A stretch of 29,790 bases of DNA, taken from a virus. Positions 1,403 to 6,585 of this stretch are shown here, piece after piece. Position 1 is the stretch's first letter. Each line of letters opens with the position of its first letter. The DNA lies in the IMG/VR virus record IMGVR_UViG_3300029319_006801, positions 1 to 29,790 of that record; one strand, written 5' to 3'. The position numbers and the translations under genes were made by a program. The notes under the pieces were generated by a model, which saw only the letters and a list, made by a program, of their open reading frames with translations, searched no databases and had not been told where the DNA came from.

Positions 1403-2155
1403 TTATTTAAAAATAATTTCTTTTTTTATATTAGATATTGCTTTTGCAGGATTGAGACCTTTAGGACAGGTCTTTGTACAGTTCATAATAGTATGACATC
1501 TATATAACTTAAATGCATCATTAAGCATTTCTAATCTTTCTTTTTTATTTTTATCTCTACTATCTACTATAAATCTATACGCTTGTAATAATATAGCAGG
1601 ACCTAAAAACTTTTCACTATTCCACCAATAACTTGGACATGCTGTACTACAACATGCACATAATATACATTCATACAATCCGTCTAACTTCTTTCTATCT
1701 TCTTGTGATTGTATTCTCTCTTTCTTAGGTTTATCATCATTTACAAGATAAGGTTTAATACTTTTATATTGATCAAAGAAAGGTTTAAGATCTACTATAA
1801 GATCCTTCATTACTTGCATATGTGGTAAAGGATATACTTTGAATTCTTTTTTATCTATAGGAGTCAAACATGCTAATGTATTAGTTCCATTTATATTCAT
1901 AGAACAACTACCACATATTCCCTCTCTACAACTCCTTCTAAACGCTATAGAAGGATCCACATTGTTCTTTATATACATTATAGCATCCAATAGCATTGGA
2001 CCTATCTTTTTTTTGTCTAAATTAAATGTATCTATTCTAGGATTGGATCCATCTTCTCGATTCCAACGATAGATTTGTAATGAAAGATTGTTAGGTTTAC
2101 CATAAGTCTTGCCTTTGACAATCTTTGAATTTTTAGGTAAGTTAAATTGAACCAC
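1403..2155 (-). CDS. sdhB: Succinate dehydrogenase iron-sulfur subunit
   Basis: The 250-residue product is full length for SdhB. This subunit passes electrons from the flavin of SdhA through three Fe-S clusters to ubiquinone, at the inner face of the cytoplasmic membrane. All ligands are visible: [2Fe-2S] Cys76, 81, 84 and 96; [4Fe-4S] Cys163, 166, 169 and 230; [3Fe-4S] Cys173, 220 and 226. Quinone-site residues Pro174, Trp177, Trp178 and His221 are also present. The C-terminal stretch ([20 protein letters not shown]) resembles alphaproteobacterial/mitochondrial SdhB. No sdhA, C or D is visible here, so it must join host subunits. The GTG start at 2155 follows four bases after the DUF2061-like gene's stop without a clear ribosome site, so it is probably coupled. 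An active enzyme part is likely; fumarate reductase FrdB is less likely. Confidence 0.95.
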
Positions 2156-4723: not shown

Positions 4724-4822
4724 AGAAGTAAGAGATGAATTTGTTATAACTACACATAGTGATCATACGTGTATGAAACAAGTAACTCAGCCGAGAGGCG
4801 ATAAAAGAGATTGGAGAACAAA

Positions 4823-5584
4823 ATGAGAGAACCAGATTGGTTTTTAAGATGGTTTATGTATTGTGTTATGGCAGCAGCTGCAATAGGATGTTTATTAGCA
4901 GCACAAGCATATGCAAAGTCAACTTGGGATGAATATTTAAAAGATGAAGTAGTTGGAGATAAAACTGTATGGTATGATAATAGTATATTAATAACAGCAC
5001 CATATAGAGCTTTGGATCCAGCTGGAGTAGAGATATCATTATATGATAGAGCACCTGGTGTTGCAGACTATACCAAACTAACTTTAGTTATAGACGAGAA
5101 CCCAACACCATGTTGTGCTACATTTGAATTCTTTGAAATGGTACCACATATTATGACTAATGTAAGAGTAAATGCATATACAGATCTAAGAGTTATATCA
5201 GAAAATAATTATGATGCATTAAGATATAACAAACAATATATAAAAGCAGCAGGAGGTTGTTCAGCACCACCAGTGTTGACTTCTGATCAACCATTCGGTA
5301 CAATTAACTTATTACAATCTAATGGTTGGACAAAGATTAAAATATGGCATCCTAATTTTTCAGGAATGCAGTTTAATCAACTAACAAGAACAGAGATACC
5401 TGCTGAATATATTGATAATGTTAAAATGTGGGTTGACGATAATTTAGTTTGGGAGTATAATGGTACTATAGGTATCGCACAAGATGTTTTCTTTATGATG
5501 CCTATACATACAATAGGTAAACATGTTAAAATATATGCAAAAGATAATTTAGGAAATGAGTTCGAATATGATAACACTTACTGA
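4823..5584 (+). CDS. Fused SoxYZ-like carrier protein, quinoprotein-dehydrogenase-associated type
   Basis: The 253-residue product has a signal peptide ending AQAYA (about residue 31) and is therefore periplasmic. The mature N-terminal half resembles SoxY: TAPYRALDPAGVEISLYDRA, LVIDENPTPCC, and the carrier motif KAAGGCSAPP with Cys146. The C-terminal part (about residues 165-253) resembles SoxZ: KIWHPNFSGMQ, then EIPAEYIDNVKMW. This SoxY-SoxZ fusion matches the family known as quinoprotein dehydrogenase-associated SoxYZ-like carrier (TIGR04557), which sits next to PQQ-dependent alcohol dehydrogenases in bacteria. SoxYZ normally carries intermediates on a cysteine; the role of the fused form is unproven. 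ATG 4823 is chosen over TTG 4811 because GGAG lies eight bases before it. The next gene, an Fe-S carrier, overlaps its end, and pqqA lies 0.9 kb downstream. Confidence 0.85.
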   Translation: MREPDWFLRWFMYCVMAAAAIGCLLAAQAYAKSTWDEYLKDEVVGDKTVWYDNSILITAPYRALDPAGVEISLYDRAPGVADYTKLTLVIDENPTPCCATFEFFEMVPHIMTNVRVNAYTDLRVISENNYDALRYNKQYIKAAGGCSAPPVLTSDQPFGTINLLQSNGWTKIKIWHPNFSGMQFNQLTRTEIPAEYIDNVKMWVDDNLVWEYNGTIGIAQDVFFMMPIHTIGKHVKIYAKDNLGNEFEYDNTY

Positions 5585-5888
5585 TTCTGCTAAAGATTAT
5601 ATCTACAGTATAGCTGTAAAGAATAATAAGAAGATAGTTACATTTGGAGTACTTGGTGGTGGTTGTGCTGGCTTTAGTTACAAATGGGACTATGCAGAAG
5701 AACCTATTGATGGTTACAGTTTATTTCCTATCAGAGATGATATAAAATTAGCTGTTGACAAAACTTCTGAAATGTATATTATGGGTAGCACTATAGATTA
5801 TGTACAAGAACTTATGGGTAGTTTTTTAAAGATAGATAATCCATTGACTAAATCTTCATGTGGATGTGGAGAAAGTTTTAGTGTCTGA
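5568..5888 (+). CDS. A-type Fe-S cluster carrier (IscA/ErpA/SufA family)
   Basis: This 106-residue protein begins MITLTDSAKDYI and has the three conserved cysteines of A-type carriers: Cys33 in GGGCAGFSYKW, and Cys98 and Cys100 in SSCGCGESF. These proteins hold Fe-S clusters and hand them to apo-proteins in the cytoplasm. Length is normal for the family. ATG 5568 matches family N-termini; an in-frame ATG at 5556 would add four residues. The start lies inside the 3' end of the SoxYZ-like gene, so translation is coupled. An IscU scaffold is encoded 0.7 kb downstream and an Fe-S client (SdhB) is in the same window. Whether it is closest to IscA, ErpA or SufA cannot be settled by eye. Confidence 0.92.
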   Translation: MITLTDSAKDYIYSIAVKNNKKIVTFGVLGGGCAGFSYKWDYAEEPIDGYSLFPIRDDIKLAVDKTSEMYIMGSTIDYVQELMGSFLKIDNPLTKSSCGCGESFSV

Positions 5889-6383: not shown

Positions 6384-6446
6384 ATGAGGTCCGCGGTCGT
6401 TTAGGCAACCGGCTCAAATCAAATATTAATATTTAATATAAGGAGC
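6384..6446 (+). ncRNA. Possible structured 5' leader of pqqA
   Basis: A GC-rich island (6,386-6,415) stands out in an otherwise very AT-rich leader. CGGT (6394-6397) can pair with ACCG (6408-6411). CTC at 6413-6415 can pair either with GAG at 6386-6388, closing the structure, or, as GCTC, with GAGC of the ribosome site at 6443-6446. That mutually exclusive pairing would be a way to control translation. I do not match it to a known riboswitch class. It could instead be an incidental hairpin. Confidence 0.35.
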
Positions 6447-6450
6447 AATC

Positions 6451-6528
6451 ATGGCTTGGACAAAACCTCAAATTACTGAGATTTCAGTAGGACTAGAGAT
6501 CAACTCTTACGCCTGCGCAGAGCAGTAA
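6451..6528 (+). CDS. pqqA: PqqA, precursor peptide of the PQQ cofactor
   Basis: The 25-codon frame starts at ATG 6451, five bases after AGGAG, and ends TAA at 6526. The peptide MAWTKPQITEISVGLEINSY followed by ACAEQ has all features of PqqA: the W-x-K/T-P start, the G-L-E core and the invariant Glu16-xxx-Tyr20 pair, whose side chains PqqE cross-links to begin pyrroloquinoline quinone synthesis. Length fits (PqqA is usually 22-40 residues). No pqqB-E genes are visible, so the host must supply the enzymes. The gene stands alone between its own leader and a terminator hairpin. It lies downstream of a SoxYZ-like carrier associated with PQQ dehydrogenases, which strengthens the call. It is too short for most gene finders. 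Confidence 0.88.
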   Translation: MAWTKPQITEISVGLEINSYACAEQ

Positions 6529-6539
6529 TACCAAAGTTT

Positions 6540-6585
6540 GGGCAGAGTATAATTCCTTCAAGGATTGAATCTGCCCACATCTTTT
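6540..6585 (+). terminator. Rho-independent terminator after pqqA
   Basis: GGGCAGA (6540-6546) pairs perfectly with TCTGCCC (6570-6576), with a smaller TCC/GGA stem inside the loop, followed by ACATCTTTT. It lies 11 bases after the pqqA stop and would make a short monocistronic transcript. Confidence 0.7.

Follow-up and report, generated by a model that had tools for sequence, protein, structure and literature searches.

Why would a marine T4-like phage carry a lone gene for the precursor peptide of a bacterial cofactor? The question is raised by a 29.8-kb IMG/VR fragment (29,790 nt; record IMGVR_UViG_3300029319_006801), the whole of which is referred to below as the window. It contains a frame of 25 codons, pqqA, encoding the ribosomally made, consumed precursor of pyrroloquinoline quinone (PQQ), a cofactor central to marine methanol and alcohol oxidation. 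Each PQQ consumes one PqqA, and PqqA is therefore the cheapest part of the pathway for a phage to add. Our analysis makes it probable that this is a functional phage copy feeding host PQQ synthesis, with a structured leader RNA setting its translation. The elements of the pqqA cassette are as follows:

6384..6417, plus strand: structured leader RNA, 34 nt; covariance model R1, 42.3 bits, E 1.8e-7 (the window leader is one of the 41 sequences used to build this model); no Rfam family
6440..6445, plus strand: ribosome-binding site AAGGAG, 5 nt upstream of the ATG; from sequence and folding
6451..6528, plus strand: pqqA, 25 codons, PQQ precursor peptide MAWTKPQITEISVGLEINSYACAEQ with Glu16 and Tyr20; TIGR02107 and PF08042; purifying selection
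6539..6585, plus strand: hairpin TGGGCAGA...TCTGCCCA followed by TCTTTT, terminator-like, between pqqA and iscU; from folding

As judged from its sequence, the frame at 6451-6528 encodes a true PqqA. The match to TIGR02107 spans all 21 positions (39.6 bits against a cut-off of 20, E 3.1e-10), that to PF08042 all 19 (36.3 bits against 21.1), and a six-frame search of the whole record returned it as the sole PqqA match (E 1.1e-10). The E-x3-Y pair falls on Glu16 and Tyr20, which are the residues cross-linked by PqqE in known PqqA peptides, as is well established (see also PMC12997753). The initial annotation, which had read a textbook PqqA with exactly these residues and had named both models as a check, is therefore upheld, numbering included. 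The ribosome site it described lies where expected, and its leader turned out to be more than had been supposed, namely a conserved structured RNA. As for the terminator, the 3' hairpin, at about 6539-6577, is strong (-17.9 kcal/mol, z -3.7 against shuffles) and is followed by TCTTTT, although a simple terminator scan does not call it.

Comparison with related phage loci indicates that pqqA in the window is under purifying selection: synonymous and nonsynonymous changes stand at 3:0 against L407, 8:3 against L010 and 14:4 against L399. Since our patterns for viral pqqA presuppose both Glu and Tyr, losses of either residue, which the initial annotation had named as a test, were searched for separately in viral contigs. 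A search for genes lacking Glu (a codon not starting with G at that position) gave 0 matches, and the five matches to a pattern lacking Tyr included no PqqA according to the hidden Markov model. The pair is thus kept in the phage relatives.

It is important to note that IMG/VR can include cellular contigs, and pqqA might simply sit on misclassified host DNA. A profile search of the window, however, identified replication and baseplate genes of T4 type, namely gp59 and gp32, a late-transcription regulator, and wedge and hub proteins of the baseplate; this bears out its description as T4-like. Moreover, contigs of its relatives carry terminase, portal and primase/helicase genes, and pqqA also occurs in complete genomes of isolated phages. 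Host contamination is ruled out by the phage genes flanking pqqA and by these isolates; misclassification is already refuted for the window and the isolates, and we assign it a practically negligible probability for the viral contigs.

Among phages, pqqA proved to be widespread. Sequence patterns place it in 315 viral loci, with at least 120 viral matches to a degenerate peptide pattern and likewise at least 120 to an alpha-type pattern. The gene sits in differing genomic neighbourhoods, and its proximity to iscU is retained in L010, L242, L407, L399 and L426. One phage locus (L404) encodes a PqqA-like peptide with a long Asp-rich C-terminal extension. Searches with tblastn revealed orphan pqqA genes in the cultured phages P19250A, Venkman, MEP301, MEP401 and MEP402 and in four Melnitz records; the five cultured methylophages tested all exceed the TIGR02107 cut-off. 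These records were retrieved via pqqA itself, and the fraction of carriers is not to be read from that search. According to a paper from 2023, the OM43 phage isolates known by then were Venkman, MEP301 and Melnitz, to which it adds MEP401 and MEP402 (PMC10580990); all five carry pqqA, and so does P19250A.

Such a distribution also bears on the idea that pqqA is a passenger, acquired from a host by chance and without benefit. The gene is indeed short, stand-alone and located near other host-derived genes. Nevertheless, the synonymous excess among close relatives, the occurrence of pqqA in six cultured methylophages and across dissimilar lineages of phage, and the conserved leader (see below) all speak against this idea, and we give it a very slim chance.

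The initial annotation had expected that pipelines would overlook so short a gene, and they do. There is no annotated gene at the pqqA site in Venkman, P19250A, MEP301 and MEP401 (four regions inspected). In Melnitz (MZ577097.1, 76100-76195; L534), "hypothetical" open reading frame 152 is annotated antisense across the unannotated pqqA, which lies directly 5' of a tRNA-Leu gene. PQQ is not mentioned in the papers describing Venkman and MEP401, and in the Melnitz paper it is named solely as a medium component. On the other hand, pqqA on a phage is not a first: Coutinho et al. reported PqqA together with methanol dehydrogenase in Lake Baikal T4-like phages of Methylophilaceae in 2020 (PMC7678222). 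The same authors stated that isolate P19250A has none of these genes (PMC7678222); contrary to this statement, P19250A has an unannotated pqqA. Overall, phage pqqA is not new in kind, yet it is far commoner than reported, and its breadth and the leader RNA appear new as far as the open-access literature shows.

In the window, the leader folds into an outer helix (GAG/CUC core), a 2-nt bulge, a 3-bp helix (CCG/CGG), a CG/AAC internal loop and a hairpin (GUC/GGC). The regions upstream of alpha-type phage pqqA share such an element, with a bulge of 1-2 nt, the CG/AAC internal loop and a small hairpin. Among 41 distinct sequences, covariation was found in all three helices, with two-sided changes at 9 of the 11 pairs and a covariation score of 0.308, against 0.136 for shuffled and at most 0.05 for slid controls. 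The loops are almost invariant while the helices covary, and RNAalifold recovers the same fold. Because this alignment was chosen with pairing required, the fair control is the set of loci selected by peptide; there, the helices were present in 31 of 33 core matches, 17-38 nt before the ATG (two of the 31, with a 1-nt bulge, were read by eye). Minimum free energy alone fails to single out the leader (z -0.3 to -0.6), and the case for it consequently rests on covariation. A covariance-model search against Rfam 15 matched no family.

The element keeps close company with pqqA. In a first pattern scan, 97 of 121 matches lay before pqqA; one more was truncated at the end of its contig, and the remainder were GC-rich and matched by chance. 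In a second scan with a variant pattern, the figure was 31 of 32, one of them cut by a contig end. In total, 137 viral loci have the leader upstream of pqqA, and they belong to at least two dissimilar phage lineages: one is T4-like (the window, L097, L413), and the other (L008, L433) has genes for a primase/helicase, a large terminase and a portal protein. L187 (NZMJ01000006.1), a contig assigned to the bin of Maricaulis sp. IN14, looks like phage, carries pqqA with the leader and is probably mis-binned. In two T4-like phages, a permuted alphaproteobacterial transfer-messenger RNA lies directly before the pqqA leader (L097:1065-1356, L108:5906-6194). A promoter scan gives no support for a sigma-70 promoter 5' of the leader.

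In bacteria, a single copy was found, directly before rpoH (sigma-32) in a genome of the probable host family discussed below (L531, G010:C2:10945-10980, E 5e-8). The other 27 rpoH genes of that family lack it, and a conserved rpoH leader is ruled out by this presence in 1 of 28 genes. The pqqA leaders of the hosts are also without the element, which excludes a general host pqqA leader. Neither the pattern nor the model, which scored 18 candidates per genome, gave a match in 385 alphaproteobacterial genomes, and a common alphaproteobacterial element is thus rejected as well.

What might such a leader do? In the window, folding shows that the GAGC of the ribosome site can pair with GCUC, the 3' strand of the outer helix, and this pairing represents a plausible, though unproven, switch. 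Folding predicts more pairing of the ribosome sites with their own linkers than with shuffled ones (0.31 against 0.50; 48 of 60 leaders), and forcing the conserved fold frees these sites in part, with a shift from 0.31 to 0.44 on average and from 0.21 to 0.28 in the window. Since the leaders are related to one another, the p-value of this comparison should not be taken for a probability of function. From these models we infer that the leader may control pqqA translation. It is tempting to suppose an undescribed class of natural riboswitch, responding to PQQ, to an intermediate of its synthesis or to some other signal of quinoprotein metabolism or stress, metering PqqA in phages and controlling rpoH in at least one marine bacterium, but we regard this as rather unlikely. 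A weightier possibility, somewhat short of even, is that the leader does no switching and instead stabilises the 5' end or binds a protein, travelling with pqqA as a cassette. Such an element would fit the occurrence of the leader upstream of both pqqA (in dissimilar phages) and rpoH (in a single bacterium), two genes that share no obvious ligand, as well as the weak expression-platform evidence for the window itself; the near-invariant loops and covarying helices, as in aptamers, and the greater pairing of the ribosome sites speak against it.

Some beta-type pqqA genes have upstream elements of their own. A second conserved leader, TCAAG-N-GGGACYTG...CTCTCCC-TGATCTG, lies 32-40 nt before the ATG in seven phage loci (L024, L044, L046, L047, L058, L082, L096); it looks pseudoknot-like and has no Rfam family. 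A word resembling AATGATTTTC, perhaps a promoter element, precedes 24 of the 98 phage pqqA genes of beta type and 0 of the 142 of alpha type. Matches to the ROSE_3 RNA thermometer were also found on contigs with beta-type pqqA (L047:4506-4572, L058:1445-1510).

A phage peptide of this kind would need a host able to process it. No PqqB-E homologue was found in any viral locus examined, the five matches of the search being bacterial loci, and pqqA is therefore stand-alone, as first described. One gene of the window serves as a host marker:

1403..2155, minus strand: SdhB, succinate dehydrogenase iron-sulphur (Fe-S) subunit; PRK05950, 355 bits

The four best matches of this SdhB (72-75%) are in G020, G026, G022 and G010, genomes of one alphaproteobacterial family, and the next reach at most 65%. 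The PqqA peptide is identical at 20 of 23 positions to copies from marine single-amplified and metagenome-assembled genomes of the same family (L190, L206, L226). Taken together, both proteins suggest that the probable host belongs to a single family of marine Alphaproteobacteria with small genomes, possibly the HIMB59/AEGEAN-169 group. Its genomes span 0.9-2.0 Mb; of 32, 21 contain PqqE and 31 contain pqqA, in up to five copies, and in the two genomes inspected pqqA is followed by an apparent pqqB-C-D-E run. On these counts the host, itself a probable one, may provide the rest of the pathway. Near sdhB, the window also encodes a formyltransferase-like protein (PF00551; 2377-2952, minus strand); the phage SdhB is full-length, and homologues of it also occur near iscU in two other phage loci (L244, L245).

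The likeness to host PqqA is relevant to another idea, in which the modified peptide would serve outside PQQ synthesis, for example as a small ribosomally synthesised and post-translationally modified signal or as a defence-related peptide. A PqqA-like family is co-expressed with defence systems (PMC11118758), and some phage variants diverge, such as that of L404 with its long acidic tail. The window peptide, however, is nearly that of the host (see above), and no other peptide-modification genes lie nearby in the window; we would grant a role outside PQQ a small chance.

Three further genes lie near the pqqA cassette:

4811..5584, plus strand: fused SoxYZ-like carrier, associated with quinoprotein (PQQ) dehydrogenases; TIGR04557; signal-peptide-like N-terminus
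5556..5888, plus strand: A-type Fe-S carrier (HesB/IscA/ErpA-like); TIGR00049, 87 bits (cut-off 58.8); PF01521, 50.2 bits
6600..6998, plus strand: IscU Fe-S scaffold, directly 3' of the pqqA cassette; TIGR01999, 216 bits (cut-off 192.4)

The first of them matches TIGR04557 over its full length at 140.9 bits against a cut-off of 140, a marginal score. Homologues were found in ten other viral loci, two of them near relatives (81-93%) and eight more distant (45-51%), and in all ten, pqqA with its leader lies at most about 5 kb away, on the strand of the carrier gene. The carrier occurs in 0 of 78 IscU-selected phage loci lacking pqqA, and no homologue was found in the phage record collection. The initial annotation's notion that the phage supplies only the substrate thus does not hold. 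The carrier is also pertinent to the possibility of a decoy, a phage peptide that binds host PqqD or PqqE, blocks or diverts PQQ synthesis and stops host alcohol oxidation. An inhibitor would indeed need only the pathway substrate, which alone is encoded here; but one would expect a decoy to drop Glu or Tyr, whereas both cross-linked residues are retained here along with the entire core, and the SoxYZ-like carrier belongs with working quinoprotein enzymes. A decoy therefore seems quite improbable to us.

The Fe-S genes tell less. IscU was found in at least 600 viral contigs, with pqqA in just 2 of the 80 IscU contigs fetched, and IscU as a pqqA-specific partner is ruled out by this wide occurrence in phages without pqqA. 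PqqE is a radical S-adenosylmethionine Fe-S enzyme, and the neighbouring genes could support it; we give this little weight for the same reason.

Returning to a functional precursor, we propose the following scenario. During infection, PqqE/PqqD of the host would cross-link the phage peptide, and host enzymes would process it. PQQ output would then rise for a periplasmic quinoprotein dehydrogenase of the methanol/alcohol type that feeds electrons to respiration; the dehydrogenase would work longer during infection, and the SoxYZ-like carrier would support the same enzyme. The leader would switch between folds that free and that pair the ribosome site, tuning pqqA translation. Hosts likewise keep extra pqqA copies. 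In Acetobacter, PQQ increased by 29% when pqqAB was overexpressed and eightfold with the whole cluster, and pqqA alone reportedly raises PQQ in Gluconobacter (PMC7936290); the precursor helps, then, but is not the sole limit.

Several points weigh against this scenario. PQQ in these hosts may be limited by something other than the supply of precursor, and the host is a probable one, assigned by homology alone. The window, only a fragment of the genome, yielded no dehydrogenase gene, and the carrier score barely exceeds its cut-off. Half of the alpha-type phage pqqA genes, as well as the beta-type ones, lack the leader, which is therefore not needed for the role of pqqA; the freeing of the ribosome site by the forced fold is modest, and the leaders are related. 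Keeping these points in mind, we still consider a functional pqqA under its leader probable. If phages of methylotrophs and marine Alphaproteobacteria routinely add PqqA, PQQ supply in infection becomes directly testable with existing isolates such as Venkman, Melnitz, MEP401 and others, and the leader gives a compact, unclassified regulatory element tied to pqqA in unlike phages.

Finally, we would like to compare the locus with known systems. Like translational riboswitches, the leader is small, its loops are conserved, its helices covary and the ribosome site tends to pair; it differs from known riboswitches in that no Rfam family matches it and its switching is putative. With bacterial pqqA, the phage gene shares the near-identical peptide, and the extra copies of the probable host family recall it, but in place of a pqqABCDE operon the phage has pqqA alone under its own leader, with an RNA element that host pqqA leaders lack. 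In the Pseudomonas ped cluster, the SoxYZ-like carrier gene PP_2677 lies beside PQQ-dependent alcohol dehydrogenases (PMC12997753); its counterpart at 4811-5584, which matches TIGR04557, is on a phage near pqqA. The closest precedent is the Baikal phage VP_266, also T4-like with pqqA, a methylotroph phage in which the gene was proposed to boost PQQ for methanol oxidation (PMC7678222). Unlike the window, VP_266 has a predicted Methylophilaceae host and a methanol dehydrogenase of its own, with no leader RNA or SoxYZ-like carrier reported. The cultured methylophages (Venkman, P19250A, MEP301, MEP401, MEP402 and Melnitz) share with the window a stand-alone pqqA, although theirs carries no pqqA annotation and encodes a beta-type peptide (FGFEVTMY).
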